Shown here piece after piece: positions 3,102 through 41,889 of a DNA stretch of 41,889 nucleotides (the stretch's first letter is position 1; the number at the start of each line of letters is the position of its first letter). Made by a program: the position numbers and the translations under genes. The stretch comes from a virus. The notes below the pieces were generated by a model. The model ran no database searches. It was not told where the DNA came from and saw nothing but the letters and a program-made list of their open reading frames with translations. The stretch spans positions 1-41,889 of IMG/VR virus record IMGVR_UViG_3300031857_000434; one strand, given 5' to 3'.

Positions 3102-3130
3102 TGCACTACTAGGTGCAATGCGAGAGGAGA
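3102..3130 (+). promoter_or_regulatory. Inverted repeat plus start-associated sequence, site 3
   Basis: TGCAC (3102-3106) and GTGCA (3113-3117) form a 5-6-5 inverted repeat, followed by GCGAGAGGAGA (3120-3130) and the ATG at 3138. It lies in the 78-bp gap after the 2379 gene. Confidence 0.65.
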
Positions 3131-3137
3131 CCCCGCA

Positions 3138-3596
3138 ATGAATACCGACACACTCGAGGGTAACGGCGTCGTCATGACGGCCGACCCGGACGACGTCGAC
3201 GCTGCAGGATGGCGCCGGCACGATGTCTGGCGAATCAATGCCGAGTCATCGGGCGCCTACGGCGACGACGCCGTAGGCCTGGCCTACGAATCGCGCTATT
3301 CGGCGCGGCAGGACCACGGCCCGTTCGTCGTGGTCGACGTGGCCTATTTCGCTGAGGCCTGCAGCACTACGAATCTGCCGGACGTGGTCGACGCCTACGT
3401 CGTGGAATGTCAGATAACGACGTCAACGTGTCACGATCTCGAGGACATCGGCGGGAGTGAGATCGATTGCACGATTGATTACCTACCGGCCGACGGCCTG
3501 TACCGATACACGCTCGAGGACGCCGAGAGGATCGCCCGGCGCTATGCCCTCGAGGACGAACGGTACAAGCTAGGCACGCCCGCGCACTACGCCTAG
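3138..3596 (+). CDS. Unknown 152-aa protein, last of left-arm operon
   Basis: Acidic soluble protein starting MNTDTLEGNGVV. Segments such as GPFVVVDVAYFAEAC and DAYVVECQITTSTCHDLEDIGG suggest a beta-rich fold. No domain recognised. It shares the CTA/CTCGAG codon pattern of its neighbours. A strong hairpin terminator begins 16 bp after its stop and closes the rightward operon. Confidence 0.7.
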   Translation: MNTDTLEGNGVVMTADPDDVDAAGWRRHDVWRINAESSGAYGDDAVGLAYESRYSARQDHGPFVVVDVAYFAEACSTTNLPDVVDAYVVECQITTSTCHDLEDIGGSEIDCTIDYLPADGLYRYTLEDAERIARRYALEDERYKLGTPAHYA

Positions 3597-3912: not shown

Positions 3913-4008
3913 CCTAAACCGCCTAAACCGCAAAGAGCCCAAAGAGCCCAAAGAGCCCTAAACCGAAAAAAGGCCAATGAGCCCTAAACCGAGAAGGTCC
4001 AATGAGCC
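3913..4008. repeat. Compound 9-bp tandem repeat array
   Basis: CCTAAACCG occurs as a tandem pair (3913-3930). CAAAGAGCC follows three times (3931-3957), then CCTAAACCG again at 3957-3965 and 3983-3991, each followed by a CCAATGAGCC unit. A further CCTAAACCG plus CCAATGAGCCC unit lies at about 4321-4347, inside the 3' end of the glycosyltransferase gene. All units are multiples of three. The array lies just past the stop of the 4010-4186 gene and looks like slipped-strand expansion of the 3' sequence shared by the two leftward genes. Confidence 0.75.
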
Positions 4009-4009
4009 C

Positions 4010-4186
4010 TCAGAGATCGTCGACCGGCTCGAGGCCGTGCCAAGCGCGGGCCTCATTGCGCGTGGTCGGCGGGTCGTCGTCCTGGTGACAGAGACACGAG
4101 CACCACAGGCCGGCCAGGTCGCGGCCGGTGCACCAGCCGTCACCGCCAGGGCCACAGGCCGGGGAGAAGTAGTCCGACTCAGCCAT
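4010..4186 (-). CDS. Small cysteine-rich protein (zinc-ribbon-like)
   Basis: 58 aa. The start at 4186 (MAESDYFSPACGPGGDG) is chosen over a longer ORF because GGGAGGA lies 4 nt upstream. Cys residues in PACGPGGDGWC and LWCSCLCHQ could bind one zinc. Small proteins with a DGWCTGRDLAGLWCSC-like segment occur in actinophage early operons, without known function. It is the last gene of the leftward early operon, separated from the preceding glycosyltransferase gene by a terminator hairpin, so it may be expressed at a lower level or from its own promoter. Confidence 0.65.
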   Translation of the reverse strand: MAESDYFSPACGPGGDGWCTGRDLAGLWCSCLCHQDDDPPTTRNEARAWHGLEPVDDL

Positions 4187-4205
4187 TGAATCCTCCCGGT
4201 GACAC

Positions 4206-4253
4206 GACGAACCCCCGACCGCGAGAGGAGACTCGAGAAGCCGGGGGTTCGTC
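4206..4253 (-). terminator. Hairpin terminator after glycosyltransferase gene
   Basis: A 12-bp perfect stem (4206-4217 GACGAACCCCCG with 4242-4253) encloses a smaller CGAG/CTCG hairpin. The loop contains a + strand copy of GCGAGAGGAGA (4221-4231), the start-associated sequence seen before several genes, here without a gene start on that strand. It lies 54 bp past the 4308 stop and should attenuate leftward transcription; it may also work on rightward transcripts. Confidence 0.65.
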
Positions 4254-4307
4254 AAGGGACAGTTGTCCGAGAAACAAGGTAGCGCCTTACGTCGGGCAAC
4301 GCAAGCC

Positions 4308-5030
4308 TTACGGGGCAGCTCCTAAACCGCGCATGTCCAATGAGCCCACCGGCTCGCTCCACTTCTCCTTGAGCAGCTCGGTCATCGCCAGCGGGTTCAT
4401 GCGAGCGGCCCGGTATCGCTGGGCGAGCTCGCTGTTCGGCTGCCACCGATCGCTGCCGACGTCGCGCACGGCCTCGTGCCACAGGATCAGGGCTAAACCG
4501 GGGTGCCGGATGACCTCACCGAGCATGGCACGGCAGGCGTGGACGAAGGCGTCATCCTCACCGCCCCAACCTTGGAACCGCCAATCCTGTCCACCGGCTC
4601 GCCACCACGACTCCTTGAGCATGACGGCCGCCCCGCTCGTATGGGGCGCGGGCTCGCTCTTGTGCCTGCGAGGGGTATCCCCCACCCCTTCGGTGAGGTA
4701 GGCGGTCTCCTGCTCGTCGAGGTAAACGCCCTGGTCGAAGGGGAAGTGCAGCCGACCGTCGACCTGAGCCGCTGCGATGGCACGGTGCAGCATGTCCTCC
4801 GGCGGGATCGTGTCAGCGTCGGCCACCACGACCATCGTCGTCGTCGCCTGCGCGACCGCGAGGTTGCGCGAGGCGGCTCGGTTGAACTCCTCGCCGCCGG
4901 CATCGGCGGTCGAGATCGCGCACCCTGGCAACGCCGCGGAGTAGAAGGCGTCGACCGCCAAGAACGGCAGCAACCTCGAGGGCTGCTCACGCCAGGGGAT
5001 GCAGACGGTGACGTGCGAGTAGTCGGTCAT
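4308..5030 (-). CDS. GT-A fold glycosyltransferase
   Basis: 240 aa from MTDYSHVTVCIPW (start at 5030, overlapping the upstream stop as ATGA; the longer ORF has no ribosome-binding site). The N-terminus VTVCIPWRE, a D-x-D motif in VVVADADTIPPED (residues 71-73) and GWGGEDDAF near 154-162 match the two-domain pattern of family-2/galactosyltransferase-type enzymes that use a nucleotide sugar and a divalent metal. Next to a SAM methyltransferase it could modify a sugar on DNA, a virion protein or a host surface polymer. The acceptor cannot be read. No membrane segment is seen. Confidence 0.8.
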   Translation of the reverse strand: MTDYSHVTVCIPWREQPSRLLPFLAVDAFYSAALPGCAISTADAGGEEFNRAASRNLAVAQATTTMVVVADADTIPPEDMLHRAIAAAQVDGRLHFPFDQGVYLDEQETAYLTEGVGDTPRRHKSEPAPHTSGAAVMLKESWWRAGGQDWRFQGWGGEDDAFVHACRAMLGEVIRHPGLALILWHEAVRDVGSDRWQPNSELAQRYRAARMNPLAMTELLKEKWSEPVGSLDMRGLGAAP

Positions 5031-6275: not shown

Positions 6276-6652
6276 GCGCGGGCCTGCAAGGACTCGACGA
6301 CCGAGGCGAGGATGTCGCGTTCACGAATGATCCCGGCGACCACGAGCAGACCGGCCGGGCTCATGGCGATCACGCCGTCACGAGGGTGGGCCTTGCCGAC
6401 GACCTTGGCCCACACGACGCCGAACGGTGCGCCGGCATTGAGCGCCTCGGCGTCGGCCTCCCGCACCCAGGCAGGGAACGCCGGGGTCCGATGCGCCTTG
6501 GCCTCGATGACGAACGGCATCCCAGCGATGTCGCCCTTGTCGAGCGCACCGGCCAGCGCGCGACGCTCGACGTTCGGGTAGCCGCTCTCATTGAGGTGGG
6601 TGACGATGCCTGACTCCCAGGCCGTCCCGACCCTCTTACTCCTGTTCGCCAT
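6272..6652 (-). CDS. Holliday-junction-resolvase-like nuclease
   Basis: 126 aa. The segment VERRALAGALDKGDIAGMPFVIEAKAH (about residues 28-54) carries the D-(8)-E-x-K signature of the PD-(D/E)XK fold as found in small archaeal/phage-type resolvases; W12, E13 and H19 in the first helix fit as well. It would resolve branched DNA during replication and before packaging. It lies in the replication operon close to the prim-pol gene and overlaps both neighbours. A VRR-NUC or other small PD-(D/E)XK nuclease is the alternative. Confidence 0.75.
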   Translation of the reverse strand: MANRSKRVGTAWESGIVTHLNESGYPNVERRALAGALDKGDIAGMPFVIEAKAHRTPAFPAWVREADAEALNAGAPFGVVWAKVVGKAHPRDGVIAMSPAGLLVVAGIIRERDILASVVESLQARA

Positions 6653-6839
6653 ACTGCGCCCCCGTCAGCTCGTAGGTCTGGCACGGCCACAGGAATCCGC
6701 ACTCGGCGCAGGCACGACGGCCGGGGTTATTGCCCCCGAGTGCGGCCGGGTGGTGCAGGGTCGCGATCGAGTCGAGCCGGTCGAGCGAGGTCGGGGAATC
6801 CCCAAGCAGCCGCCAGCTCTCAACGCTGTCCTCATTCAT
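6636..6839 (-). CDS. Small conserved phage protein
   Basis: 67 aa. The pattern LHHPAALGGNNPGRRACAECGFLWPCQTYELT includes CAEC and a later Cys, probably a metal-binding knuckle. Similar short proteins with a WPCxT ending are common in actinophage early operons; their function is unknown. It overlaps the resolvase-like gene by 17 bp and the upstream gene by 4 bp. Confidence 0.65.
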   Translation of the reverse strand: MNEDSVESWRLLGDSPTSLDRLDSIATLHHPAALGGNNPGRRACAECGFLWPCQTYELTGAQYGEQE

Positions 6840-6994: not shown

Positions 6995-7728
6995 GCCGCA
7001 CCCCCGGTAAAGCGGTCGTCCATGTCGGGGTGCTGGGCCGTGAACTCGGCCAGCGTCAGGCAATGCCACGCAGCGGCGATAATGTGCAGCGAGCCGGTCT
7101 CGGCGTCGATGTCCTCGCCGTTCCAGAACGCCCAGGTGTGCCGCTGCAGCGCGGCGAACGACTTACCCCACTCGTAGCCCTTGCGGTACTGATGGTCGTC
7201 GTACTTCTGAGCACCGACGCCGTAGTGCTCGGCGAGCTGGCGCAGCGGCCCGGTCGGGATCAGGTCATAGCGAGCGAGCTTTACGCCCTTCTCGCCGCCC
7301 TTGGCGCTAGTTGTGCGGACCTCGCCGTCGCCAGGGTGGACGCGCAGGTCGGTCAAGGTGACGGCCGATGCTGAGGCGATTGCCAACTCGAGCTCATAGA
7401 CCGGCTTGCCCAGGGCGGTCGCCAAGGAGGTCTCGGTGATCGTGCCCTTGCTCTCCTCCCATCCCGGCAGGAGCACGATGCAATCGACCTCGCGGGCGAT
7501 GATCGTCAGGTCGGCCAGGAGCGCCTCGGCGAGATCGAAGTCGGGGATATCGGCCAGGTCGCCAGTCTCGGACAGGTTGAAGTCCTGGCCGTAGCGGGCA
7601 CGGTCGACCTCGGCGGGGTTGACCACCTCCCAGCCGACCGCCCGGAGCCGGGCGGTGGCCTCGTCGAAGGCCGGGAAGTTGAAGTCCGGGTAGCCCCGCA
7701 TCGGGCCGGCGAGATAACAGCGGTTCAT
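6991..7728 (-). CDS. Fusion: DUF4406 (deoxyribosyltransferase-like) and dATP/dGTP diphosphohydrolase-like
   Basis: 245 aa. The start at 7728 has GGAGGT 6 nt upstream. The N-terminal domain (CYLAGPMRGYPDFNFPAFDEA, then DIPDFDLAEALLADLTIIAREVDCIVLLPGWEESKGT) is the DUF4406 pattern, related to nucleoside 2-deoxyribosyltransferases. The C-terminal domain begins GGEKGVKLARYDLIPTGPL and continues with Y-x-x-GAQKYDDHQYRKGY, RHTWAFWNGEDIDAETGSLHIIAAAWHC, matching the dATP/dGTP diphosphohydrolase N-terminal family (formerly DUF5664, related to MazG/MazZ). It probably adjusts dNTP pools by removing pyrophosphate. No PurZ is seen, so a 2-aminoadenine genome is not implied. Confidence 0.8.
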   Translation of the reverse strand: MNRCYLAGPMRGYPDFNFPAFDEATARLRAVGWEVVNPAEVDRARYGQDFNLSETGDLADIPDFDLAEALLADLTIIAREVDCIVLLPGWEESKGTITETSLATALGKPVYELELAIASASAVTLTDLRVHPGDGEVRTTSAKGGEKGVKLARYDLIPTGPLRQLAEHYGVGAQKYDDHQYRKGYEWGKSFAALQRHTWAFWNGEDIDAETGSLHIIAAAWHCLTLAEFTAQHPDMDDRFTGGAA

Positions 7729-8060
7729 GAGGCCACCTCCGGGCAGCGGTGTTCGGCGAGGATGGGAAAGCCGTTGTCGGTGACGCCGACCCAGGTCGGC
7801 AGGCGCCAGGTGATGAAGGCCAGCGGCCCGAACTTCTTGAGCGAGTAGGTCCGCAGGCCGGCCGCGACGACGCCGGGCTCGAGCGCCAGCGGGATGCGGA
7901 CGGGCGAGCAGAACAGGGGCAAGCCCTGGGTGATGCGGACGATGACGAGGGCCTGGCAGCCGGGGCACGGCTGCGCCTTGAGGACGCCGAAACCGGGATC
8001 GTCGGCGGCGCGGTAGCGGGGGTAGTTGGGCGCCTTCTGCGCTTGCTTCTTGGCCTCCAA
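7725..8060 (-). CDS. Unknown protein with CxxC knuckle, TTG start
   Basis: 111 aa from TTG at 8060. GGAGG (8066-8070) lies 5 nt upstream. The longer reading from 8231 would run through the repeated noncoding element at 8072-8211 and is rejected. The protein has PCPGC near residue 30 and a second Cys (LFCSP) about 19 residues later, then a hydrophobic segment LKKFGPLAFITWRLPTWVGVTD. Function unknown; the stop overlaps the DUF4406 fusion start. Confidence 0.65.
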   Translation of the reverse strand: MEAKKQAQKAPNYPRYRAADDPGFGVLKAQPCPGCQALVIVRITQGLPLFCSPVRIPLALEPGVVAAGLRTYSLKKFGPLAFITWRLPTWVGVTDNGFPILAEHRCPEVAS

Positions 8061-8071
8061 GGCGTCCTCCG

Positions 8072-8211
8072 AACTGCGGCCCGATCTTGCTTGCGAAACC
8101 CTTGACAGACCCGGTACGCTTAGGTGCGGCCGTAGTCCAAGCGGGGCCGCCCTACCGAATAGAACTGATGGGCCGCAGTTGGGCCGCAGTTGGCATTTCG
8201 GACATATCGAC
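8072..8211. repeat. Duplicated regulatory-like element, copy A
   Basis: 140 bp closely similar to 36915-37051, with 41 bp identical at the right end (8171-8211 and 37011-37051). It starts AACTGCGGCCC and carries two tandem GGCCGCAGTT units near its right end, so TGCGGCC-type half sites flank it in inverted orientation. The central part has TTGCGA (8091), CTTGACA (8101) and TACGCT (8115), followed by an imperfect palindrome around TGCGGCCGTA. It fills the 167-bp gap between the prim-pol stop (8228) and the TTG start at 8060, the largest gap in this part of the operon. Confidence 0.8.
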
Positions 8212-8227: not shown

Positions 8228-10381
8228 TCACGAGCCCTCCCCCGGCTGGGTGAAGTACCGCGACTCGAACGGGTAGTAGGAGTAGCCACCGCCCCGGCCC
8301 TCGCGCTCGGACTGAATGAGTCGGCGCCCGTCGACAGCTCGCTTGATCGCCTTCTTGATGTCGCTCTGGCGGCCCTCGACGGTGTCGAGAATCCCCCGCT
8401 GAGACATGCCAGGGGCCTCGGTGACCGCCGCGACGATCTGCCCCTCAATGGCCCGCAGGCGGTCGGTCGAGCGATCCCAGCCGCCCATCGTGAGCCGACG
8501 GGTGGACTCCTCGAAAGTGAGCGACTCCTCCTCGACCTCGACGTCACGGCCGGTCGCCCGGAAGTAGCGGACGTCGTTCTGCTGCCCCTTGCCGCGGGTG
8601 AGCAGCCATCGGACATCGGGCCAGTCGTCGAGCCGGCTGGCGCCGCGTGCGTGCTCAGCGCCCTCCTCAGCCTCGGTGCGGCCGGTGTGCACCGGCATCA
8701 CGACCGAGGCGACCCCGGACTTGCGCTTGATGACGTCGATCGTGTCGAGGAAGGTGGACACGTCGCCGTTGTCGTTCTCGTCGCCGCTACCCACGAAGGC
8801 GCGAGCGAAGGGGTCGATGATCCACGTTTCGATCTCGTGCTCGACCAGCCACGCCACGACCATGTCCTCGACGGCCGGGTTGGTCAGCGGCATCCGGTAG
8901 CCGCGCAAGTCCCACACGCTGAACCGCTCGGGGTTGACGATGTCGACCGATTGCAGCCATCGCTTCTGCTGGTCACGGGACAGCTCGTAGTTGAACAGCG
9001 CGACCCGGCCCTCGGCCCGGACCTTGAACTTGCCCAGGAACGGCTCGCCGTCGCACAGCGACCGGACGAGTTCACCCATGAGCGTCGTCTTGCCGGTCTT
9101 GAACTGCGCCGTCAGCGTGGCGTTGCCGCCGGAGGGGAGCAGGTCGTGAACGACCCACTCGACCTGCTCGTCGGGCAGGTTGAGGTAGTCGCGGCCGTTG
9201 CCCACGGACGGGGGGATGACGATGCCCTTGGCAGCACGCGCCTTCTTGACGCGCTCGCGGGCCTCCTCGCGGACATAGGCCCGCATCGTCTCCTTGGCGA
9301 TCTCAGCCTCAACGGCCGCGACTTGATCGGTGGTGACCTCGGGGGTCGCTGGCAACGTGGTCGAGGCCGGCACGGGATTGTCAGCGACGATGCGCCCTTG
9401 CATGTCGAACACCAGGCCGGCCAGGGGGTCGTGCTCACATGTCGGGCCGCTGCATGTCTCGGTCGGACGGAGGTCGGCCAAGATGATGAGCACGCCGCCG
9501 ACCTGCATCCGGTAGAACTCGGCGGCGGCCTCGGTCGGGTTGGCCCTATTGGAGATCGCCTCGACGAACCCTTGCTTGACGTGCTCAAGCGCCCAGGCGA
9601 CACCGGAGTGGCCGGTCTGCCCCAGGCGCAGGAGCGGGAGCATGGCGTCTCGGATGCCGTCGTGGCGTGAGCCGGAGCCGTGCAGGATCGCGGTGGCCTC
9701 ACCGACACGGGCGGCGACCTGGCGGCACGCCTCACCGGGAGTGGCCCACTCATTGAGCGCGGCGCGGACCTCCTCGGGGTCGGCGTCGGCACGCTCGGCG
9801 GCGGGCTTGGCGAACCGTCCACCGGACAGGCCCATAACCCATTCGTCGGGCAGCTCGGCCAGGTCGGCCAGGCGCGGGATCGTGAACCCGTCGACCGTGC
9901 CGTCGGGGGCCGTCCACCGATAGATGCCGCCATTGGGGTGCACCGAGGGCTGCACGACGGCGTAACGGTGGCCGCGGTGAATGGTCTCGATGCCGTCGCC
10001 GACCTGGCCGGGCCAGGCCATCCCGGTCGGGACGATGAACATGCGAATACCGCTCAGGCCGTTGCGGCTGCCGACCTTCCATGTCGCCGGCAACAGGCCC
10101 CACTCGGCCTCACGCTCGGCCAGGGTGCGTGCTCCGGCCTTGCCGTCATAGTCATCGACGTCGATGCCCAGGACGTTGTCGGGCAGGCGCAGAGCGATGT
10201 TGCCCTGCGGGCGCTCATGCACCCAGCGGTCGATCTGGACGTCGTCAGGGTCGACGTCCCTGCGGCCGGTAAACCCGACCGGGGGAAAGAACTTTGCCTT
10301 GGGCGGCAAAGGTAGGACGCCGCGCCAACCGGCCTCGCGATAAACACGAGCCGTGTCGGCGTAAGGGCGGGGGTCGGTCAC
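8228..10381 (-). CDS. Primase-polymerase / RepA-like helicase replication protein
   Basis: 717 aa from GTG at 10381 (GGGAGG 7 nt upstream; GTGA overlap with the previous gene). An N-terminal archaeo-eukaryotic primase (prim-pol) domain spans about 1-190, with metal-binding GIDVDDYDG (72-80), NGLSGIRMFIV (108-118) and YAVVQPSVHPNGGIYRW (140-156). After a helical linker comes a RecA-type ATPase with Walker A TAQFKTGKTTL (424-434) and Walker B ETWIIDPFARAF. The C-terminus resembles a winged helix (GMSQRGILDTVEGRQSDIKKAIKRAV). It probably initiates and drives phage replication. Confidence 0.9.
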   Translation of the reverse strand: MTDPRPYADTARVYREAGWRGVLPLPPKAKFFPPVGFTGRRDVDPDDVQIDRWVHERPQGNIALRLPDNVLGIDVDDYDGKAGARTLAEREAEWGLLPATWKVGSRNGLSGIRMFIVPTGMAWPGQVGDGIETIHRGHRYAVVQPSVHPNGGIYRWTAPDGTVDGFTIPRLADLAELPDEWVMGLSGGRFAKPAAERADADPEEVRAALNEWATPGEACRQVAARVGEATAILHGSGSRHDGIRDAMLPLLRLGQTGHSGVAWALEHVKQGFVEAISNRANPTEAAAEFYRMQVGGVLIILADLRPTETCSGPTCEHDPLAGLVFDMQGRIVADNPVPASTTLPATPEVTTDQVAAVEAEIAKETMRAYVREEARERVKKARAAKGIVIPPSVGNGRDYLNLPDEQVEWVVHDLLPSGGNATLTAQFKTGKTTLMGELVRSLCDGEPFLGKFKVRAEGRVALFNYELSRDQQKRWLQSVDIVNPERFSVWDLRGYRMPLTNPAVEDMVVAWLVEHEIETWIIDPFARAFVGSGDENDNGDVSTFLDTIDVIKRKSGVASVVMPVHTGRTEAEEGAEHARGASRLDDWPDVRWLLTRGKGQQNDVRYFRATGRDVEVEEESLTFEESTRRLTMGGWDRSTDRLRAIEGQIVAAVTEAPGMSQRGILDTVEGRQSDIKKAIKRAVDGRRLIQSEREGRGGGYSYYPFESRYFTQPGEGS

Positions 10382-11626: not shown

Positions 11627-12552
11627 GGGGCCACCTCGCGGAGTAGTGCAGCAGCAAGCATCGGTGGGATTGCGTTCCCGATCTGCTGGAACTGCTTGGT
11701 CTTGGAGCCCTGCCACGGGTAGTCAGCCGGGAAGGTCTGCAGCATCGCGGCTTGCTCGACGGTGACGCGGACGCCGTCGTTGCGCGACTTGGTCGCGCCG
11801 TTGAACCTGTTGGCGTTAGCGCCGGGGTCGGGGACGAGGTCGCGGGTGGCGATGGTGGTCGCAGGACGCTCGCGAGTCCACGGCTTGTCGTCGGCCACCT
11901 CGGCGACGTAGGTCTGCTCCTGACCTTCGTCGGTGAAGGCCTCGCGGTGCCCGGTCATCGTGCCCTTGCCGGTCACCGTCGGGGCTGGTGCGTCGACAGG
12001 CCGATCCGATGCTGCACCGGCACGGCCTGACTGACGGACGGCCGCGTTCGGGCAGTTGTTACTACGGAGTTGCCACCGACCGGCGTCCCGCTCACGCTCC
12101 AAGCCACGCCGCGCGGCGTTGCCAAAGGTCTCGGCCCCGCCTGTCTCGGTTCCACCTCCGGTCACCGTCATCGACGGACGAGCGGTAGCTCCCCACCCGA
12201 GCGCCTGAGCCATCGACACCCACGGCAGGACGCCGTCGTCGAGCCGCTCAGGTGAGCGCGAGTGGTACTTGGAATGGGTCGGCGTCGGGAGCGAGACCTC
12301 ACGGTCACGGTGGGCGAGCAGGACCGCGCGCTTGCGGGTCTGCGGGACGCCGTACTGCTCGGCCTGCACGTTGCCGGTGACGACGTTCCACCCGTGCCCG
12401 CGCAGCACCTCGGCGCACGCTTCCCACACCGGCAGAACGGTGGGCACCTGTTCCCAGGCGAGGCGGTGGAGGTAGACCTTCTTGCCGTTGATGCGACGGG
12501 TGCGGTAGCCATTGCCGTTCGGCGTGCCATCGCCGACGATGCACGCGCTCAT
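11623..12552 (-). CDS. Chimera: HNH-like start fused to C-terminal part of a C5-cytosine methyltransferase
   Basis: 309 aa. Residues 1-36 (GNGYRTRRINGKKVYLHRLAWEQ) look like the beginning of a phage HNH endonuclease. From VPTVLPVWEACAEVLRGHGWNVV the sequence is a DNA cytosine-5 methyltransferase starting at motif VI (ENV appears as EQV), with motif VIII (YGVPQTRKRAVLLA), a recognition region containing repeated RPxxTVTG-like segments, motif IX (ERPATTIATRDLV) and motif X (QIGNAIPPMLAAALL). SAM-binding motif I and catalytic PCQ motif IV are absent, and the upstream gene ends at the start, so catalysis is not expected. It is a deletion fusion or decayed gene that may still bind DNA. Confidence 0.8.
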   Translation of the reverse strand: MSACIVGDGTPNGNGYRTRRINGKKVYLHRLAWEQVPTVLPVWEACAEVLRGHGWNVVTGNVQAEQYGVPQTRKRAVLLAHRDREVSLPTPTHSKYHSRSPERLDDGVLPWVSMAQALGWGATARPSMTVTGGGTETGGAETFGNAARRGLERERDAGRWQLRSNNCPNAAVRQSGRAGAASDRPVDAPAPTVTGKGTMTGHREAFTDEGQEQTYVAEVADDKPWTRERPATTIATRDLVPDPGANANRFNGATKSRNDGVRVTVEQAAMLQTFPADYPWQGSKTKQFQQIGNAIPPMLAAALLREVAP

Positions 12553-13473: not shown

Positions 13474-13941
13474 CTAGTGCCATCCGTTCTGCTGGAAGAA
13501 TGACCACGCCGCGCAGGGCGAGCCGTGGCGGTGCTCGATGTAGGCCAGCCCGCGCTTGACCTGATAGGCCGGCGCGTCCGTTGTCTTGAGGCCCTTGAGC
13601 TGGGGGATGCCGATGGGGTAACGACCGTCGGTGTTCAACGGGCCGACGGCCTTCGGGTTCCACCCGCTCTCGCGGGTGTAGAGACGGTCGAGGCATCGGT
13701 ACTGACGCGGGGAGAGCAGGCTGCCCGCGTACTCCCGTGCCGACAGAGCATGACGGGGACGATCACGGTCGGCTCGAGGTGTCGGCCGCGGGGGCACGGT
13801 CACCGTCGTGGTCACGGTGCGCGTCACCGTCGGGGTCGACTCGGTCACGGCGATGGCCGTGGTCATCGATGCACCGAGAGCGACACCGACCAGGCCGATT
13901 GCCAGCGCCACGAGCGCGGCGGTCCACCGCTCACTACTCAT
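13474..13941 (-). CDS. Exported lytic-transglycosylase-like protein
   Basis: 155 aa. An N-terminal hydrophobic segment (about 8-32, AALVALAIGLVGVALGASMTT) is a signal anchor, followed by a Thr/Val/Pro-rich linker. The C-terminal domain YRCLDRLYTRESGWNPKAVGPL..YPIGIPQ..IEHRHGSPCAAWSFFQQNGWH matches the small lysozyme-like transglycosylase family, with the catalytic Glu in RESGW. It would cut peptidoglycan outside the membrane. It is encoded in the early operon and not with the lysis genes, so a role in envelope alteration or superinfection exclusion is conceivable; it could also simply be a second lysin. Confidence 0.75.
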   Translation of the reverse strand: MSSERWTAALVALAIGLVGVALGASMTTAIAVTESTPTVTRTVTTTVTVPPRPTPRADRDRPRHALSAREYAGSLLSPRQYRCLDRLYTRESGWNPKAVGPLNTDGRYPIGIPQLKGLKTTDAPAYQVKRGLAYIEHRHGSPCAAWSFFQQNGWH

Positions 13942-14132
13942 GCGTCACCGGCCAGCGTGTATGACGGTGCTTCGACAAGGAATCGTTCGAGCTCGTCACG
14001 GGGTATGACCGTGCGCCCTCCAAGCTTCTTGCCAACGATCAGCCCGTCCTTGAGAAAGGCGTAGAGCTGGCTGCGGCTCAGGCTCAGAAGGTGAGCGGCA
14101 TCTTCGACGGAGTACGCAAGGCGATCAGTCAC
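13938..14132 (-). CDS. Excisionase-type HTH DNA-binding protein
   Basis: 64 aa. YSVEDAAHLLSLSRSQLYAFLKDGLIVGKKLGGRTVIPRDELERFL is the MerR-like winged-helix fold of the excisionase (Xis/helix-turn-helix 17) family. In a genome with a tyrosine integrase it is the best candidate for the recombination directionality factor, although a transcription regulator is also possible. It overlaps both neighbours by 4 bp. Confidence 0.75.
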   Translation of the reverse strand: MTDRLAYSVEDAAHLLSLSRSQLYAFLKDGLIVGKKLGGRTVIPRDELERFLVEAPSYTLAGDA

Positions 14133-14446
14133 TTGTCATCACCGGCCAGCGTCAGGCGGCGCGAGGTCGACTCGGTCGTGACGGCCTCAGCGACTTCGGG
14201 GTACTCGGCCTTGAGGCGCTTGGAGTCGACGCGGCGGGAGGTGACCTCGGTGTAGGTGGCAGCCTTCTCACCGCCGACGAACACGATCACGTTGTCGCCG
14301 AACTCGGCGATCTTGTTCTTGAGCAGGTCGCCGAGGGCCTTCTCCTGCTCGTCGAGCGCCTTGCGCTCGGTACGGATGCGCTTCATCTGCGCGATGGCGT
14401 CGGCGACGACATGGTCGGCGTCGAGGGGGGTGGGTGTAGCGGTCAT
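14129..14446 (-). CDS. Helical protein, possibly a recombination accessory
   Basis: 105 aa. A long amphipathic helix (VADAIAQMKRIRTERKALDEQEKALGDLLKNKIAEFG) is followed by VIVFVGGEKAATYTEVTSRRVDSKRLKAEYPEVAEAVTTESTSRRLTL. This layout (coiled helix, then a beta hairpin and D-x-K-x-L-K-x-x-x-P) resembles small proteins encoded near YqaJ/Cas4-type phage exonucleases and the C-terminal part of some of them. The role is inferred from that similarity and position only. Confidence 0.6.
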   Translation of the reverse strand: MTATPTPLDADHVVADAIAQMKRIRTERKALDEQEKALGDLLKNKIAEFGDNVIVFVGGEKAATYTEVTSRRVDSKRLKAEYPEVAEAVTTESTSRRLTLAGDDK

Positions 14447-14662: not shown

Positions 14663-14985
14663 GCGTTGACCTCGATCAAGCCGTCGCTGACGGCGACGAC
14701 GATCGTCGGCAAGATCACCTCGAGGATCGACGCGGCAAGCTCCTCATAGGACGCTGCCTGGTGCGCGAGCTGGACGATGTCGGCGTAGAGGCGCTCGTAG
14801 GTCTCGTCCTCGCAGGTCGCATCGCGCTCGGGGAGCACGACCAGCGCGGCCTCATCGACGGTGACCGCCCCCAGGGCCAGGTGATTGCCGTCCAACATCA
14901 CCGACGCGCCGCGGGAGTCGTCGATGAAGGTTCCCGTTGTGACGACGGTGCCCTTGAGGGCGACCCGGTCGCCGGGGGCGGTCAC
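14659..14985 (-). CDS. Unknown 108-aa protein
   Basis: The N-terminal part looks beta-rich (RVALKGTVVTTGTFIDDSRGASVMLDGNHLALGAVTV); the C-terminal part is helical and acidic (YERLYADIVQLAHQAASYEELAASILEVI). It is coupled by 4-bp overlaps to the cro-like gene and to the membrane protein gene. No family recognised. Confidence 0.65.
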   Translation of the reverse strand: MTAPGDRVALKGTVVTTGTFIDDSRGASVMLDGNHLALGAVTVDEAALVVLPERDATCEDETYERLYADIVQLAHQAASYEELAASILEVILPTIVVAVSDGLIEVNA

Positions 14986-15197
14986 GCTGACTCCTCGAGG
15001 GCGATCACGTCCGCCTCAAGGAAGAACAGCGGGCCGCGCAGACCGTCGGCCTTGATCGCCGGGGTCAGCCGGCCCTTGGAGGCCCAGCGGTGAATCGTGC
15101 GAACGTCGACACCGAGGCGGCTGGCGGCCTGCGCGGTGGACAGGAACTTGGGGGCCACGGGGGCGGTCGTGTTTGCCATGCGGGGAACGTAGGGCAT
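14982..15197 (-). CDS. Cro-like / excisionase-type HTH regulator, leaderless
   Basis: 71 aa from ATG at 15197. FLSTAQAASRLGVDVRTIHRWASKGRLTPAI is a MerR/Xis-type helix-turn-helix. It is transcribed divergently from the repressor and is first in the leftward early operon, the position of a Cro protein. The ATG at 15197 lies 7 nt after the -10 box TAAGGT, so the mRNA is probably leaderless. The later ATG at 15179 has no Shine-Dalgarno sequence. An operator-like site covers its promoter. Confidence 0.7.
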   Translation of the reverse strand: MPYVPRMANTTAPVAPKFLSTAQAASRLGVDVRTIHRWASKGRLTPAIKADGLRGPLFFLEADVIALEESA

Positions 15198-15198
15198 A

Positions 15199-15214
15199 TG
15201 GGTAACCTTACGCA
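15199..15214 (-). promoter_or_regulatory. Early leftward -10 box and repressor operator
   Basis: On the minus strand TGCGTAAGGTTACCCA contains TAAGGT (15210-15205), 7 nt from the ATG at 15197. It matches the operator motifs at 288-303 and 15282-15297. No convincing -35 hexamer is found 16-18 bp upstream, so the promoter may need activation or rely on the -10 box. Confidence 0.55.
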
Positions 15215-15262
15215 AACCATCCGACAATCTTCGGCGTGTCGCATGTTGGGCGTTATCGGCTA

Positions 15263-15297
15263 TTGCTATCCATGTCAAGTAGGCCTAACCTTGGGCA
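15263..15297 (+). promoter_or_regulatory. Repressor promoter with operator
   Basis: TTGCTA (15263-15268), a 17-bp spacer and TAACCT (15286-15291) form the rightward promoter. The ATG at 15299 is 7 nt after the -10 box, predicting a leaderless message. The site 15282-15297 (minus strand TGCCCAAGGTTAGGCC) overlaps the -10 box, so the repressor probably controls its own synthesis. Confidence 0.65.
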
Positions 15298-15298
15298 C

Positions 15299-15622
15299 AT
15301 GAGCACACAGCCGAGCAACGAACACATCCCCGTTTGGACCGCTGGCGACCGCTTCCGCAAGGCACGCGAGGACGCCGGCCTCACACAAACCGAGCTGGCC
15401 GATGCGATCGGCGTCGACCGCAAGACGATCAGCGCCTACGAACTCGACGACCGCAAGCGACCGATGAAGATGGTCGTCAACGCCTGGGCGATGCGCTGCA
15501 GCGTGCCGGTGTCCTGGCTCCTGACCGGCAAAGCCAGCCAACCTACTGACGGGCAGCCTGCCCACCTACTCATGCGGAGCTTGCCCCCTTTCGTACCGGG
15601 CGTAGCCCCCACCGCGGCCTAA
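15299..15622 (+). CDS. Immunity repressor (XRE-family HTH)
   Basis: 107 aa. FRKAREDAGLTQTELADAIGVDRKTISAYELDDRKRPMKMVVNAWAMRCSVPVSWLLTG (about 19-77) is a lambda-repressor-like HTH domain. There is no peptidase or dimerisation domain, so induction by LexA-type self-cleavage is unlikely. The C-terminal tail (MRSLPPFVPGVAPTAA) is disordered and ends in Ala-Ala. The leaderless start at 15299 is preferred over an upstream ATG at 15236. It is followed 13 bp later by the integrase and diverges from the cro-like gene, the usual genetic switch layout. Confidence 0.85.
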   Translation: MSTQPSNEHIPVWTAGDRFRKAREDAGLTQTELADAIGVDRKTISAYELDDRKRPMKMVVNAWAMRCSVPVSWLLTGKASQPTDGQPAHLLMRSLPPFVPGVAPTAA

Positions 15623-15635
15623 AGAGTTCTTCACC

Positions 15636-16448
15636 ATGCTCCGAATCGTAAACGTGGACGCAACGGGGATTCGTGAACAACACTTGACGGCCCTCCGGCG
15701 GCAGAACGCGCGACCGCGAACGATCAAGTCGCGGAGCGAGATACTGAGCAAGATCGAGCGCGAGGCCGGCGACCTTGCAGAACTGTCTCGCGACGACCTC
15801 AACGCATGGCTCGATCGCTATATGTCGGCGTCGACCCGAGCGACGTACCTGGGCCACCTCCGGTCCTTCTACCGCTGGGCCTGCGAGAACGATGTCCTCG
15901 ACCGCGACCCAACCTCGGGGATCAGGACACCGAAGGTGCCGCGACGCCTCCCGCGGCCGATCAGCGAGTGCGAGCTGACCGACGCGCTGGCAACCGCTAC
16001 ACCGCTCGTCCGCGCCTGGGTCACCCTGGCGAGCTATTCGGGTTTGCGCGCCTGTGAGATTGCCGCAATCAGAGGTGAGCACATCGACCGCGAGCGACGG
16101 TCGCTGTTCATACCCGCGCAAAAGGGTGGTGACGCGGCGACAGCCCCGCTACCGCCGACCGTGATTGCCGAACTCAGTCGCTGGCCGCGCGTCGGGCCGC
16201 TGTGGGCCGACCACGAGATCACCGCAAACCATGTCAGCCATACCGTTGCCACGCACTTCCGCTCGCGGGGCATCGACGGTGGCCTACATCGGTGTCGCCA
16301 CAGGTTCGCGACGCGGTTCTTGGAGGCGTCGGGGTTCGACCTGCGCGCCACTCAGGAGGCCATGCGCCATCGGTCGCCTGCTTCGACCGCCCTCTACACC
16401 GAAGTGCTCCCCGAGCGGTTGGTCAGCATCGCGGCGAAGATCGCCTAG
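15636..16448 (+). CDS. Tyrosine integrase (compact, Xer-like)
   Basis: 270 aa. A core-binding SAM-like domain (about 15-95, TIKSRSEILSKIE..STRATYLGHLRSFYRWACEN) is followed by the catalytic domain with Arg in YSGLRACEIAAI (R138), the hairpin Lys in QKGG (about 163), HRCRHRFATRFL (H218/R221), H245 in MRHRSP and nucleophile Y254 in STALYTEVLPER. It is shorter than typical phage integrases and lacks a clear N-terminal arm-binding domain, thus resembling XerC/D. It would integrate the genome into the host chromosome. It shares a transcript with the repressor. Confidence 0.9.
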   Translation: MLRIVNVDATGIREQHLTALRRQNARPRTIKSRSEILSKIEREAGDLAELSRDDLNAWLDRYMSASTRATYLGHLRSFYRWACENDVLDRDPTSGIRTPKVPRRLPRPISECELTDALATATPLVRAWVTLASYSGLRACEIAAIRGEHIDRERRSLFIPAQKGGDAATAPLPPTVIAELSRWPRVGPLWADHEITANHVSHTVATHFRSRGIDGGLHRCRHRFATRFLEASGFDLRATQEAMRHRSPASTALYTEVLPERLVSIAAKIA

Positions 16449-21473: not shown

Positions 21474-22221
21474 CCCCGTAGTACGTCGGGGCGGCGATCG
21501 AGATGGCCTCGAGGTCGATCGCGCTGACGGAGTTCGACGGCAGGGTCGAGATGCGGGAGACGCTGACGCCGCTCACCGACAGGTACTCGACGGCCTGGGT
21601 GCCGTAGTCCGGGTAGCGCGGGATGAGCGCGACCGGATGACCGCTGCTCAACAGGTCGAGCACGTCGTCACGGTCGGTGTCGTTCCACACGACCAGCGAC
21701 ACCGACCCGACCCAGGTCGAGCGCACGTTGGTCAGCGGGATCGGCAGCTCCTCATTGAGCACGGCCGCAGCGGTGCCGGTCGCCTCGAGGGCCTGCTCGA
21801 CCTGGGAAGCGACGGTGACCTCGAGACGGACCAGGCCAGCGGGGTTGACGCTGACCAGGAGATCGGAGCCGGAATCGATCGCCGGCAACGTCAAGGTGTT
21901 GCTGACGTACTCGGTGCTCCCGACGGTCAACGTGGCGACGTACGTCAAGGCGACGTTCTGCGGCACCTCGTAGTCGTTGCGCGTCAAGACGTCGTCGGTG
22001 TCAATCGCGACGTCGATCAGAGACCGGACGTTGCGGCCGTCGGGTGCGGTGCGCGTGACCGTGACCGTACCGACGCCCGGAGCATCTTCGATCGTGAGCT
22101 CGACGATGCCGTCAACTGCGACGCCGGAAAGGGTGAAGTCCCCAGGCGGCGTGCCGCCACCGCCCAGCGACCCGTAGGTGCCGAGCGATCCGTAGGTGCC
22201 GAGGGAGCCGTAGGTGCCCAT
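21466..22221 (-). CDS. Minor tail protein with N-terminal GTYGSL repeats
   Basis: 251 aa. The N-terminus is three perfect GTYGSL repeats (18-bp DNA repeats at about 22162-22220) and a Gly stretch. The rest aligns by eye with the protein encoded at 25799-26701: LTYVATLTVGSTEY with LTYFALLTDGVSGS, DSGSDLLVSVNPAGLVRLEV with DAGTDLIGSCIDPTLTASV, SGHPVALIPRYPDYG with DGSVICLRPRTPLAHG, and AVEYLSVSGVSVSR with PVEYLLVGDVKKSR. The two are probably paralogous distal-tail (Dit-like) proteins. Confidence 0.7.
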   Translation of the reverse strand: MGTYGSLGTYGSLGTYGSLGGGGTPPGDFTLSGVAVDGIVELTIEDAPGVGTVTVTRTAPDGRNVRSLIDVAIDTDDVLTRNDYEVPQNVALTYVATLTVGSTEYVSNTLTLPAIDSGSDLLVSVNPAGLVRLEVTVASQVEQALEATGTAAAVLNEELPIPLTNVRSTWVGSVSLVVWNDTDRDDVLDLLSSGHPVALIPRYPDYGTQAVEYLSVSGVSVSRISTLPSNSVSAIDLEAISIAAPTYYGGA

Positions 22222-22986: not shown

Positions 22987-24762
22987 TTACGCCACGGTCA
23001 CGTTCGTGCAGTTGGCTTGCGTCACAAGGTCTGCGGTGACCTTGCCCATGACGGTGTTGCCTGTCACCGACACGTCGCGGCACCGTGCCAGGTCCGCGAG
23101 GTAGCCGGTGAACTTTCCGGCGTTGCCGGTGATGGCGATGGACCGCAGGCCGTAGTTGCCAAGGCCGTCCGGTGACGGGTTCGACGCGGCAAACAACTTG
23201 AAAGCCGGGTCCGTCTTGGCGTCCTGTGTCTGCAAGACGTTGTTGGCGATCACGATGTACGCCTGGTAAGCGTTCGTCAGGCTCATGTCGTACTGCACGG
23301 CGTTGCCAGCACCGCCCCAGCCCCAATCTTCGAGGGAGTTGCCGACGATGCGAATGTTGCCGGTCTGCCCGCTGGACGATGAGGGGTTGAGGTAGACGTG
23401 ATTCTGTCCGCCGTCGATCCAGTTGCTAGACACTTCTAGTCCACCGCTGCCGCCCCACAGCACACCCGCGAACGATGCGGGGGCGTACCCAGCGCTGCCA
23501 GGGCCGCGTGAACTAATCCAGTTACCTGTAAAGCGATAGCCGCCGTAGTCCGGCCAACCGGGGTTATAGCACTCGATACCCGCGCGGAGGGAACTAAGAA
23601 TGAGCGAGTCTCGTACAGCCGTAACGCCACCTTCGATCCAGACGCCCCGATACAGTCCCGACGTGAGGATGCGCTCAGTGAACCCGCCGTCCCACGGCGA
23701 CACCGACCCTTCTAGTTTCAGACCGGAACCAGCGGTCGGCCACGATCCGTTCGAGAAACCCAGGTTGAGGCTCGGCGCTGCGACGTGCTGGAACCCGATG
23801 TCGGATACCTGCCCCAGCGCGGCGGAGCGCGTCAAGATGTTGTTGTTCGTGCGGGTCATAAACTGCGACAGCCAACTCCCATCCCCGCGCACGTTGGTAG
23901 CAAAGTCGGGAATGACGTGCCCGCCTTGCGTCATGTAGAACCGCTCGCCCCCGGACGGCAGGTACAGCGTGCAGAACGGGGTCGCGGCAGCACACCAGTT
24001 GTTGAGCGCGGTCGTGTTATCTGTCCCGCACACAGCGGCAGCGGTCACAGAGGACACCGGAGCGGGCGTGACCGTGATCGAGCCACCGCCGCCCGCGACG
24101 GTCGAGATCGTGCAGGCATGAATCGCGCCAGCGGTGCCCGCTGCGTTGATCCACAGAACCTTGCCAACGTCCGAGGGAGCAAACAGGTTTGTCGGATCGT
24201 TTGCAAGGATGGTCGTGCTGCTTGCGGTGGTGACGACTGCGATCACGCGACCGTCAGCAACAGCACCGTAGTCGGCGGCGCTAATGACGTTTGAGCCAGC
24301 CGGGGCACCCCCAACAGCCGAATCGACGTAGCCCTTGGTCGCGGCATCGGTCGAGGCTGACGGGGAGGCCAGCGCAGTAATCCGCTGCGAGCCCATCCCG
24401 ACCGAAGCGGTCGGAGCGGCCATCTGATCCAGGCGGTTCGTACGAACCGCCGTGTTGAAATCGCTGATCGTGGACGCGAGCTGCGTGCCCGTGTGATTGG
24501 CGCGCTGCACCGCCGCCGCCTGAGCCGCGTTCGCCTTCGACGTTGCCCCCGCCGTCGTTTCCAACAACGACGTGTTAGCGATGCCATGAATGTTCGTCGT
24601 GTCGGCCTCGTGAGCCGTCAACGCCGACGTTGAAGCCTTGCCCGGAAGGGCCGCTTCAACGTCCTCCAAACCGGCCTCAATCGCGTTCACCACCGTGATG
24701 ATCGCCTGCGCGCCAGTATCGGCCGATGCGCCGTTACTAAGTCGCTGGTAGGGGCCAGCCAT
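22987..24762 (-). CDS. Tailspike with pectate-lyase-type beta-helix
   Basis: 591 aa. The N-terminal 140 residues (AIEAGLEDVEAALPGKASTSALTAH..RITALASPSASTDAATKGYVDSAVGG) form a helical/fibre attachment part. SNVISAADYGAVADGRVIAVVTTASSTTI is the entry strand of right-handed beta-helix tailspikes (pectate lyase superfamily), followed by many short Gly/Asn-rich turns up to the C-terminus. It probably recognises or degrades host surface polysaccharide. The start overlaps the upstream stop as TAATG. Confidence 0.8.
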   Translation of the reverse strand: MAGPYQRLSNGASADTGAQAIITVVNAIEAGLEDVEAALPGKASTSALTAHEADTTNIHGIANTSLLETTAGATSKANAAQAAAVQRANHTGTQLASTISDFNTAVRTNRLDQMAAPTASVGMGSQRITALASPSASTDAATKGYVDSAVGGAPAGSNVISAADYGAVADGRVIAVVTTASSTTILANDPTNLFAPSDVGKVLWINAAGTAGAIHACTISTVAGGGGSITVTPAPVSSVTAAAVCGTDNTTALNNWCAAATPFCTLYLPSGGERFYMTQGGHVIPDFATNVRGDGSWLSQFMTRTNNNILTRSAALGQVSDIGFQHVAAPSLNLGFSNGSWPTAGSGLKLEGSVSPWDGGFTERILTSGLYRGVWIEGGVTAVRDSLILSSLRAGIECYNPGWPDYGGYRFTGNWISSRGPGSAGYAPASFAGVLWGGSGGLEVSSNWIDGGQNHVYLNPSSSSGQTGNIRIVGNSLEDWGWGGAGNAVQYDMSLTNAYQAYIVIANNVLQTQDAKTDPAFKLFAASNPSPDGLGNYGLRSIAITGNAGKFTGYLADLARCRDVSVTGNTVMGKVTADLVTQANCTNVTVA

Positions 24763-35827: not shown

Positions 35828-36183
35828 GCCCCGAACCGTTCGACGATCTGAGCCTTGGTCAGGCCCTCGATTTCCTCGCGGGAGATGTCCTCGGTCGCCA
35901 GCACGAACTCGACCCAAGTGGCCTTGCTCGCCGAAGCGGCCGGCACCGGGACCATCTCGGGGTCAGCCGGCACAACCGGGAACGTGCTCCCGCTGGCGAC
36001 CTGGGTGAGCAGGTCGCCGAGCGGGACGGCGTCGGCCGGCACGAACTCACCGACCAGGGCGCTTGCGGCAGCATCGGCCGGTTCCCACCCGATGAGAATG
36101 CCGCCGACACGGGCCTTGGGGCGCTTGTGGGCCTGACGGGTTGTTCCGTCGACCGGGGAGCGCCACAGGGGTGCGGTGCTCAT
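35824..36183 (-). CDS. Unknown head-operon protein with SAP-like C-terminus
   Basis: 119 aa. The first 100 residues are Pro/Ala-rich with no clear fold (VGGILIGWEPADAAASALVGEFVP). The C-terminus EFVLATEDISREEIEGLTKAQIVERFGA looks like a short SAP/Rho-N type helix-extended-helix module, which often binds nucleic acid. It overlaps the scaffold stop and the glycosyltransferase start by 4 bp. Confidence 0.6.
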   Translation of the reverse strand: MSTAPLWRSPVDGTTRQAHKRPKARVGGILIGWEPADAAASALVGEFVPADAVPLGDLLTQVASGSTFPVVPADPEMVPVPAASASKATWVEFVLATEDISREEIEGLTKAQIVERFGA

Positions 36184-36824
36184 GCCGACTTCACGACCTG
36201 GCGAATCCAGTCGCCGCCCGTGGCCGGGGTGCCTGAGCTCTGCGGACCCTGTTCCATCGAGGGGACCGTCTTGCGGAGCAGGTAGTTCTTCTCCTCGGCC
36301 AGCTTCTTCACGGCAGCCTCGACCGCCGACACGTCGGTCAGGTCGGCGAGGTCGCCCACGAGGTTGACCGCGTCCTTGGGGTCGGCGAACCCGGCGGCAG
36401 CCGCGGCCGCGACGACCTGCGACTTGGTCAGCTCGACCCGCATCTCGGCCTCGACTTCGGCGCGGGTCTCGGCCCGGATCGCCTCGGGGTCGACCGGCGG
36501 GGTCTGCTCACCCTCGGGGTCGGCTGCCGGTGTCGGTGCCTTGGGCGTCTTGCGGACCTGCTGGCGCAGCGAGGACAGCGACGAAAGCAGCTTGACGTGG
36601 TCGGCGACATTGATCGTGCCGTCCTCGCTGGGGGTGATGCCGTGCTCGGCCAGAACCGCGCGCTGCTCGTCGGACAACTCGACCGCCGGGGGCGTTTCGA
36701 TCGGAGTCTCCGGCTGTGGGGCGAACGGGTTGTTCGGCGGGGTGGGGTTTCCGTCGGCGCCTTCGACGGCCGGGGCGAACGGGTTGCTGGGCGGCGCTTC
36801 GGGGGTGGGGGTCTGCTCGGACAT
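36180..36824 (-). CDS. Scaffolding protein
   Basis: 214 aa from ATG at 36824 (AGAAGG 6 nt upstream). The N-terminus is Pro-rich and disordered, with two NPFAP segments (SNPFAPAVEG and NNPFAPQPE). The centre is a charged coiled coil (AIRAETRAEVEAEMRVELTKSQVVAAAAAAGF), and VNLVGDLADLTDVSAVEAAVKKLAEEKNYLLRK is the usual C-terminal part of actinophage scaffolds. Position between portal/MuF and capsid supports it. Leader 36825-36914 has inverted repeats at 36855-36868 and 36901-36918. Confidence 0.85.
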   Translation of the reverse strand: MSEQTPTPEAPPSNPFAPAVEGADGNPTPPNNPFAPQPETPIETPPAVELSDEQRAVLAEHGITPSEDGTINVADHVKLLSSLSSLRQQVRKTPKAPTPAADPEGEQTPPVDPEAIRAETRAEVEAEMRVELTKSQVVAAAAAAGFADPKDAVNLVGDLADLTDVSAVEAAVKKLAEEKNYLLRKTVPSMEQGPQSSGTPATGGDWIRQVVKSA

Positions 36825-36900: not shown

Positions 36901-36918
36901 AGTTAGGGTCGCCTAACT
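36901..36918. repeat. Inverted repeat next to duplicated element B
   Basis: AGTTAGG-gtcg-CCTAACT is a perfect 7-4-7 inverted repeat whose right arm runs into the start of element B (AACTGCGG). Not present at copy A. Possible operator or small terminator for leftward transcripts. Confidence 0.55.
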
Positions 36919-37051
36919 GCGGCCCGATTAGTGTTGACAGAACTTGACACGGCCAGTATGCTCAAGTGCGGCCGCACTCCAAGGGGGCCGCGCTACTGAA
37001 AGCGATAGTTGGCCGCAGTTGGGCCGCAGTTGGCATTTCGGACATATCGAC
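36915..37051. repeat. Duplicated regulatory-like element, copy B
   Basis: 137 bp similar to 8072-8211. In this copy the + strand has TTGACA (36934-36939), a 17-bp spacer and TATGCT (36957-36962), a strong-looking promoter, followed at the expected start point by the 14-bp palindrome AGTGCGGCCGCACT (36965-36978). Two tandem GGCCGCAGTT units and the right-end block (37011-37051) are identical to copy A. It fills the gap between the MuF-like stop (37059) and the scaffold leader. The promoter faces against the flanking genes, so its product would be an antisense or noncoding RNA. Confidence 0.8.
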
Positions 37052-37058
37052 GTCGATC

Positions 37059-38015
37059 TCAGAGGCCAAGAGCCTCATCCGTCGCCCGGTTCGCAGCGAT
37101 GAACTTCTCGTAGTTCGTCGGGGCTGGCCCCTCCCAAGCACCGATCGACTCGGCCGCCTTGAAGTAGTCCTTGGAGTCGCGGAACGCCCGCGCGTAGGCG
37201 CGGGCCTCGGCCTCGGTGAGCGGCCGCCAGGAGCACCGACAGCCTCGGTGCCAGCGAGCGCCACGCTTGAACGACTCGAGCGAGTAGACGCGCGTGGAGA
37301 CCAAGATGCACCAGCCGCACGCACCGGCCGCCGGCACCCGCCGGTAGAGCATCGCCGACCCGTTCTTGAACTTCGGCCAGCTCGTCGAGGTCGCCATGAT
37401 GCGCTCGGCAGCTCGCCCGGCGTTGTAAGTCACCGAGGCGACGTAGGGCGTCACGCTCTCGACGGCCTCGCTCAGCACCTTGCCCTCAGCGAGCCCGGCC
37501 CTGACCTTGATGACCGGGGCCTCGAGGTTGAGGATGCGATCGGCCAGCATCGCGTCACTAAGGAGCGCCTGGCCGGCCTTGACCCGAGCAAGGGCAGCCT
37601 CGGCCTCGGCCGTGAGTGTCGGGGAGATCGTGTTGGCCGGGGATGATGCCCAGCGATCGAGGTCGTCCCATAGTTCGTTGTCGACGTCGATGGTCAGGTC
37701 GTCATCGAAGGTGACCCCGAACGCCGAGAACGTGCTGCGGGCGTAGCCGGCCGTGATCGCCGCCTGCCGCTCCTGCTGAGCGCCGAGCAGCGAATCCCAG
37801 GCCGTGACCCATTCGGTCTTGTCGGCATCGGTGACCGGCCGCATCGCTCGCCACAGGTCGATCGCGGTCTGCTCGGCCACACGCGAGGCGACCTCCTGCG
37901 AGGCTTGGTAGCCCACCGCCAGCGCCAGGAGCACAGCCGGGTCGATGTCGTTGTCGACCTCTACCTCGGCCCCCGACCGAGGTAGAGAGGTGATCCCGGC
38001 GGGAATCTCGGTCAT
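37059..38015 (-). CDS. Minor head protein (MuF-like)
   Basis: 318 aa. The central and C-terminal parts (ESVTPYVASVTYNAGRAAERIMATSTSWPKFKNGSAMLYRRVPAAGACGWCILVSTRVYSLESFKRGARWHRGCRCSWRPL) contain the C-x-W-C and H-x-x-C-x-C pattern of MuF C-terminal-type domains. Position after the portal is classic. It may be carried into the head with DNA. Overlaps the portal stop by 4 bp; followed by element B. Confidence 0.8.
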   Translation of the reverse strand: MTEIPAGITSLPRSGAEVEVDNDIDPAVLLALAVGYQASQEVASRVAEQTAIDLWRAMRPVTDADKTEWVTAWDSLLGAQQERQAAITAGYARSTFSAFGVTFDDDLTIDVDNELWDDLDRWASSPANTISPTLTAEAEAALARVKAGQALLSDAMLADRILNLEAPVIKVRAGLAEGKVLSEAVESVTPYVASVTYNAGRAAERIMATSTSWPKFKNGSAMLYRRVPAAGACGWCILVSTRVYSLESFKRGARWHRGCRCSWRPLTEAEARAYARAFRDSKDYFKAAESIGAWEGPAPTNYEKFIAANRATDEALGL

Positions 38016-41877: not shown

Positions 41878-41889
41878 CGTGTCTGCGAA

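Follow-up and report, generated by a model that had tools for sequence, protein, structure and literature searches.

A duplicated non-coding element in the early and late operons of a probable temperate actinobacteriophage: a possible dispersed transcription-control module

Two operons of the soil phage genome analysed here carry the same stretch of about 140 bp in a gap between genes, copy A behind a prim-pol gene in the early operon and copy B behind a MuF-like gene in the late operon, raising the question of what one sequence might do at both places. The window, meaning the whole stretch of 41,889 bases analysed, is very probably a complete genome because contig L020 joins its two ends, running from window position 3460 down to 1, through 11 extra bases (CGAGGCGGCCC, L020:3461-3471) and on to position 41889. 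The extra bases are probably an 11-nt cos overhang lost on sequencing, and the contig behind L004 and L006 likewise terminates at base 41889. The genome encodes a MuF-like head protein, a likely scaffold, a tape measure and tail genes, together with an early leftward operon containing prim-pol/AAA_25. A CI-like repressor followed by a short tyrosine integrase is read rightward at 15299-16448, with two HTH_17 (Xis/BldC-like) proteins encoded at 14982-15197 and 13938-14132 (-). Judged from its repressor, integrase and excise-like HTH proteins the phage is temperate, and phage relatives suggest that its host is probably an actinobacterium. The repressor gene lies directly before that of the short integrase and is divergent from the excise-like HTH gene, as in integration-dependent-immunity phages, and the last residues of the repressor, PTAA, may be a degradation-tag-like end. 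A search for attP near the 3' end of the repressor gene gave only weak matches among the ten best in 396 genomes, none with tRNA genes. The HTH_17 gene at 13938-14132 (-) overlaps the stop codon of the preceding gene.

The sequence-only reading had described a duplicated element in the same orientation in two operons, and the alignment bears this out. A BLAST of copy A against the whole record returns copy B at 79% identity (E ~1e-27), with the remaining third match being merely a 15-bp inverted site; the complete 41,889-base genome holds no third copy. Over 140 alignment columns 111 are identical, with the 29 differences including three gaps of 1 bp. The 41 identical bp reported for the right end are also present, and the similarity is not confined to them: the left 99 columns, taken without this block, score 81 compared with at most 26 in 2000 shuffles, and the two copies are therefore true homologues whose likeness extends beyond the block. 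Three separate 1-bp indels (alignment columns 28, 71, and 89) break every shared reading frame, so that a coding role was rejected and the element is taken as non-coding.

The differences are unevenly placed. The 14 columns at the left end are all identical, the site blocks are identical between the copies, and the spacers are ~70% identical. An identical run of at least 41 columns has a probability of 0.0003 if 29 differences are scattered at random, making the block unlikely under evenly spread divergence. The proposal that a binding-site array has been kept by selection, and not by recent copying, fits these observations and is in part supported by them; with two copies to compare, a local gene-conversion patch may instead account for the identical run.

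The placement of the copies is equally specific (Table 1). Intergenic space amounts to 167 bp at A and 234 bp at B, with the element beginning 16 bp from the prim-pol stop codon at A and 7 bp from the MuF stop codon at B, and with the following genes starting at 8060 (TTG, with GGAGGA ahead) and 36824. That such large gaps are exceptional in these packed operons, as first proposed, holds on closer reading, with 6652-6836 and 13911-14129, which had likewise looked like gaps, being read as coding sequence, the latter as an HTH_17 protein gene. Elsewhere, a gap of ~130 bp remains upstream of the major head protein gene.

Table 1. Positions in the window of the two element copies, their component sites and the neighbouring genes.
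Feature	Position	Strand	Remarks
Element copy A	8072..8211		between prim-pol stop codon (8228) and likely TTG start (8060) of next leftward gene
Site 1 of A, AACTGCGGCC	8072..8081	+	identity with B extends to AACTGCGGCCCGAT
Promoter-like core of A, TTGCGA (8091-8096), 18 bp, TACGCT (8115-8120)	8091..8120	+	degenerate
Imperfect palindrome of A around TGCGGCCGTA	8124..8137		
Further GCGGCC core of A, GGGGCCGC	8143..8150	-	
Tandem sites 5 and 6 of A, AACTGCGGCC x2	8171..8191	-	11-bp period
41-bp block of A	8171..8211		identical to 37011-37051; repeat family D13
Element copy B	36915..37051		between MuF-like stop codon (37059) and scaffold gene start (36824)
Site 1 of B	36915..36924	+	
Promoter-like core of B, TTGACA, 17 bp, TATGCT	36934..36962	+	10/12 consensus positions; points rightward, against operon
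Perfect 14-bp palindrome of B, AGTGCGGCCGCACT	36965..36978		just downstream of -10 box
Further GCGGCC core of B, GGGGCCGC	36984..36991	-	
Tandem sites 5 and 6 of B	37011..37031	-	
41-bp block of B	37011..37051		identical to 8171-8211
Small Cys-containing gene, downstream of A	7725..8060	-	
Prim-pol + AAA_25 replication protein gene, upstream of A	8228..10381	-	Prim-Pol 2e-23, AAA_25 2e-27
Likely scaffold gene, downstream of B	36180..36824	-	E 0.002; E 0.0012, below Pfam cut-off
MuF-like / head maturation protein gene, upstream of B	37059..38015	-	

Both copies share one architecture. On the + strand each runs from AACTGCGGCCCGAT through a diverged stretch to CTTGACA, GTAYGCT, the GTGCGGCCG palindrome and TCCAAG, and continues with GGGGCCGC, CTAC.GAA, a second diverged stretch, GGCCGCAGTTGGGCCGCAGTTGG and CATTTCGGACATATCGAC. 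The exact word AACTGCGGCC occurs six times in the window, every time within an element (8072+, 8171-, 8182-, 36915+, 37011-, and 37022-), which upholds the description of tandem plus inverted sites: of the three in each copy, the last two stand in tandem at an 11-bp period, with the first inverted to them and a fixed 20-bp tail following the tandem pair. The words TGCGGCC/GGCCGCA are similarly concentrated, with 9 of the 28 in the window falling within the elements, which make up 0.7% of the DNA. The palindromic region said to be centred on TGCGGCC is perfect in B but broken in A (GGTGCGGCCGTAGT). Both copies are GC-rich and bounded by 11-bp terminal inverted repeats.

Repeats of other kinds occur elsewhere in the genome. 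Copies of GCGAGAGGAGA at 323-356, 2359-2392, and 3118-3151 (+) stand just before rightward starts and resemble start-associated sequences, and the stretch between convergent genes at 3932-4347 carries the repeats CCTAAACCG...CCAATGAGCCC and AAAGAGCCC, with an extra copy at the end of the 4308-5030 gene. The tape measure gene has a 129-bp internal repeat, and the tail-region gene at 24762-25802 has 44-bp repeats (89%), the loci being 27251-27511 and 25480-25676.

The TAYGCT box picked out earlier is present in both copies, its reading now being corrected to that of a promoter -10 on the + strand, facing against the operon. Within 1-40000 the core of B gives the strongest sigma-70 match (10/12), the sole other match reaching 9/12, in a scan where matches of minimum quality are expected ~1.4 times per 20 kb and none is expected in the 600-bp region around B. 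The core of A gave no match in the same consensus scan; at the same position TTG..A and TA...T are retained despite diverged flanks, separated by a spacer of an allowed length (18 bp), and the conserved CTTGACA (8101-8107) lies within that spacer. In both copies the core faces rightward, into the 3' end of the gene that precedes the element and away from the one that follows it, and the GCGGCC-centred palindrome falls where a transcription start would be expected. Inspection by eye found no leftward sigma-70 promoter common to both copies. We tentatively propose a sigma-70/SigA-like promoter that would face against the operon, as a consensus match in B and in degenerate form in A.

The search of relatives suggested in the sequence-only reading found no homologue of the element in the phage, plasmid, IMG/VR, and GTDB collections. 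Searches by blastn gave no phage match beyond the same phage, and plasmids gave none. IMG/VR was queried with an exact 36-mer, gapped inverted sites, the promoter core and the tandem sites; leaving aside contigs that belong to this phage itself, of which L004/L006 and L005 carry copy B and L020 spans the end junction, there was no match, and gapped sites found nothing in GTDB genomes. A BLAST of 396 genomes from the phylum of the Streptomyces africanus match was also negative, this being a weak search as it had no positive control. Matches L009-L015 were discarded, sharing just two 10-mers in unrelated sequence and looking like chance. Relatives were taken by portal and MuF, and the nearest by portal, L021 (53% portal), ends inside MuF, before the gap. 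As far as the searched collections show, the element is private to this phage.

Systems comparable in kind are known from other actinobacteriophages. In mycobacteriophage BPs the repressor gp33 binds five regions across the genome, with the four outside its own control region being small intergenic gaps with promoter activity, and one of these separating genes 5 and 6 of the structural operon (PMC4557955). The element resembles these regions (O6/P6, O27/P27, O55/P55, and O61/P61) in belonging to what appears to be a temperate actinophage, in occupying small intergenic gaps in the structural and early regions, and in combining operator-like repeats with promoters, one region being in the head-gene operon (PMC4557955); the promoter match is clear in B and degenerate in A. 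In contrast to the BPs half-site, a 12-bp palindrome (CGACATATGTCG) found also at the repressor control region, the sites of the element are directional, absent from the repressor control region and part of a 140-bp composite. Seven letters of the BPs site, GACATAT, recur in the tail of the element, too few to call the two related. By this analogy we consider, tentatively, that the element may work like the dispersed operator/promoter regions of BPs.

The stoperators of L5 and Cluster A are likewise asymmetric sites dispersed in short intergenic regions, and sites of the present kind could similarly stop elongation. L5 stoperators are bound by the immunity repressor, with the L5 and phiC31 systems having 18–30 dispersed sites per genome (PMC4557955). 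They are many single asymmetric sites in one orientation to transcription, whereas the element forms compact arrays of a different sequence with sites in both orientations, at two loci, fewer than in L5 or BPs. The 17-bp palindromic repeats of Cluster O, the SAS/ESAS of Cluster K and the 50-bp motif of Cluster DJ (Vardy), which holds a -10 box, are also repeated intergenic sequences of suspected regulatory function (PMC4351075, PMC3203893, PMC9671010). These are shorter and more numerous than the element, and the Vardy motif and SAS/ESAS precede a downstream start codon. Among phages examined here, the record of the prim-pol relative L007 (G004) has dispersed intergenic promoter-like sequences, TTGACAACCCAT...TAGGGT/TAGTGT, at 12268-12349 and 14068-14146 with an opposite-strand copy at 24118-24170, and Streptomyces phage Nesbitt (L100) has an intergenic duplication of 161 columns at 78% identity (21550-21704 and 40055-40209, 18.5 kb apart). 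One copy of the Nesbitt duplication lies just behind the integrase, and a palindrome, CCACCACCTCACGTGAGGTGGTGG, is also dispersed in Nesbitt, a variant of it lying between the scaffold and capsid genes. The present element is new in sequence and layout, its kind, dispersed control repeats, being already familiar in actinobacteriophages.

Of the roles first suggested, coordinated transcription control is favoured, because B has a promoter-like core and other temperate actinophages have dispersed operator/promoter regions, with an origin being possible for A by position only and a structured RNA being weak. Our preferred explanation, put forward tentatively and at somewhat under an even chance, is that the element serves a temperate actinobacteriophage as a non-coding module, dispersed over its genome, for the control of transcription. 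For such a module we infer binding, repression and coordination: a phage-encoded DNA-binding protein would occupy the directional GCGGCC-core sites head-to-tail and across the promoter, and in the off state, during lysogeny or before a switch, would keep the local promoter silent and could act as a roadblock to leftward transcription in both operons, with the replication and head genes thereby answering to one signal. On release of the protein, the backward promoter would yield a short antisense transcript. Counting against a control module are the core of A, which is degenerate and directed away from the downstream gene, and the restriction of the element to just two loci.

Candidate ligands are the CI-like repressor, the two small HTH_17 (Xis/BldC-like) proteins and the doubled CRCxxC protein. 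Tandem directional repeats would suit HTH_17/BldC-like proteins, by analogy with BldC, a small MerR-like protein that binds direct repeats head-to-tail (PMC5859096). The repressor/excise control region (15198-15298) contains neither AACTGCGGCC nor GCGGCC and has only the word TGTCAAGT in common with B; as its own control region is without the sites of the element, the immunity repressor is not an obvious ligand, and the ligand may be another protein.

Replication offers a different and rather unlikely account, in which copy A is an origin recognised by the prim-pol/AAA_25 protein and B a second origin or a cis-acting helper with the same iterons. The ori and crr of satellite phage P4 are such a pair, both carrying the same iterons. 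The repeated directional sites do resemble iterons, and a directional array adjoins the putative initiator gene at A, close behind the prim-pol stop codon, though not at B, which lies in the head operon far from replication genes. The origin candidate of plasmid pRN1 is a ~100-nt stem-loop within 166 bp directly behind its prim-pol gene, and phage BIP-1 has a similar stem-loop 3' of its replication gene (PMC4234260). The element is like that of pRN1 in being directly 3' of a prim-pol gene and in being an inverted-repeat-bounded stretch of ~100 nt (PMC4234260), and the 11-bp terminal inverted repeats of both copies could form a comparable stem-loop. It differs in having a second copy in the head operon, iteron-like repeats, of which pRN1 has none, and another type of helicase, AAA_25 here compared with SF3 in pRN1. 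Furthermore, the prim-pol genes of two relatives (Hibiscus and L007) directly abut the next gene with no stem-loop gap, fourfold-site GC skew has no strand switch at either copy, and the region is not AT-rich. A C-terminal winged helix was looked for in the prim-pol protein and not found; single-sequence structure predictions of the prim-pol C-terminus (pLDDT 41) and the CRCxxC protein (pLDDT 58) were of low confidence and were not used.

A structured RNA, either a small ncRNA from the + promoter or a folded intercistronic part of the leftward mRNA controlling processing, elongation or translation, is similarly doubtful. B folds strongly as + strand RNA (z -5.6), the two-sequence consensus exceeds column shuffles in stability on either strand (z -4.1 and -3.4), each showing three double changes, and one upstream GGGCCGCAGTT is able to pair with either of two tandem copies. 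However, A folds only weakly better than its shuffles (z -1.7 and -1.5), ranking 269 (+) and 243 (-) of 418 among ordinary genome windows, the inner helices differ between A and B, and most of the consensus gain is due to invariant inverted repeats, a feature for which a binding-site array accounts just as well. No Rfam match was found for the element at E 1.

Improbable, in our estimate, is either a two-locus switch, in which one phage protein acting on matched arrays and backward promoters would tie capsid production to replication of the genome, or a paired origin recognised by the prim-pol/AAA_25 initiator. Less probable still is that the element has no regulatory role, being either a recombination linker or a small MITE-like insertion, bearing AACTGCGGCCC at its ends, that has spread from one intergenic gap to another. 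The gaps minus the element would measure 27 and 97 bp, near the ~15–95 bp that relatives have before their scaffold gene, and the element ends in inverted repeats; set against this, there is no evident target duplication, 20 of the identical bp fall beyond the right inverted repeat, the sites are where conservation is concentrated, and no copies occur in the other phages, plasmids or genomes searched. An attachment site with arm-type integrase sites is very improbable, for whilst the phage encodes a tyrosine integrase and directional ~10-bp repeats lie on both sides of a centre, in the manner of arm sites around a core, there are two copies, both far from the integrase (15636-16448), which is short (270 aa) and appears to lack the arm-binding domain, its match to the PHROG integrase profile beginning at position 180 of 611.

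Dispersed control elements keep both genome arms silent in several temperate actinophages, and few of them are understood. If the element is a transcription-control module, the phage should encode a specific DNA-binding protein as its partner, and the compact form of the element, occurring exactly once per operon and built to a clear plan, would provide a simple system for the coupling of early and late genes.
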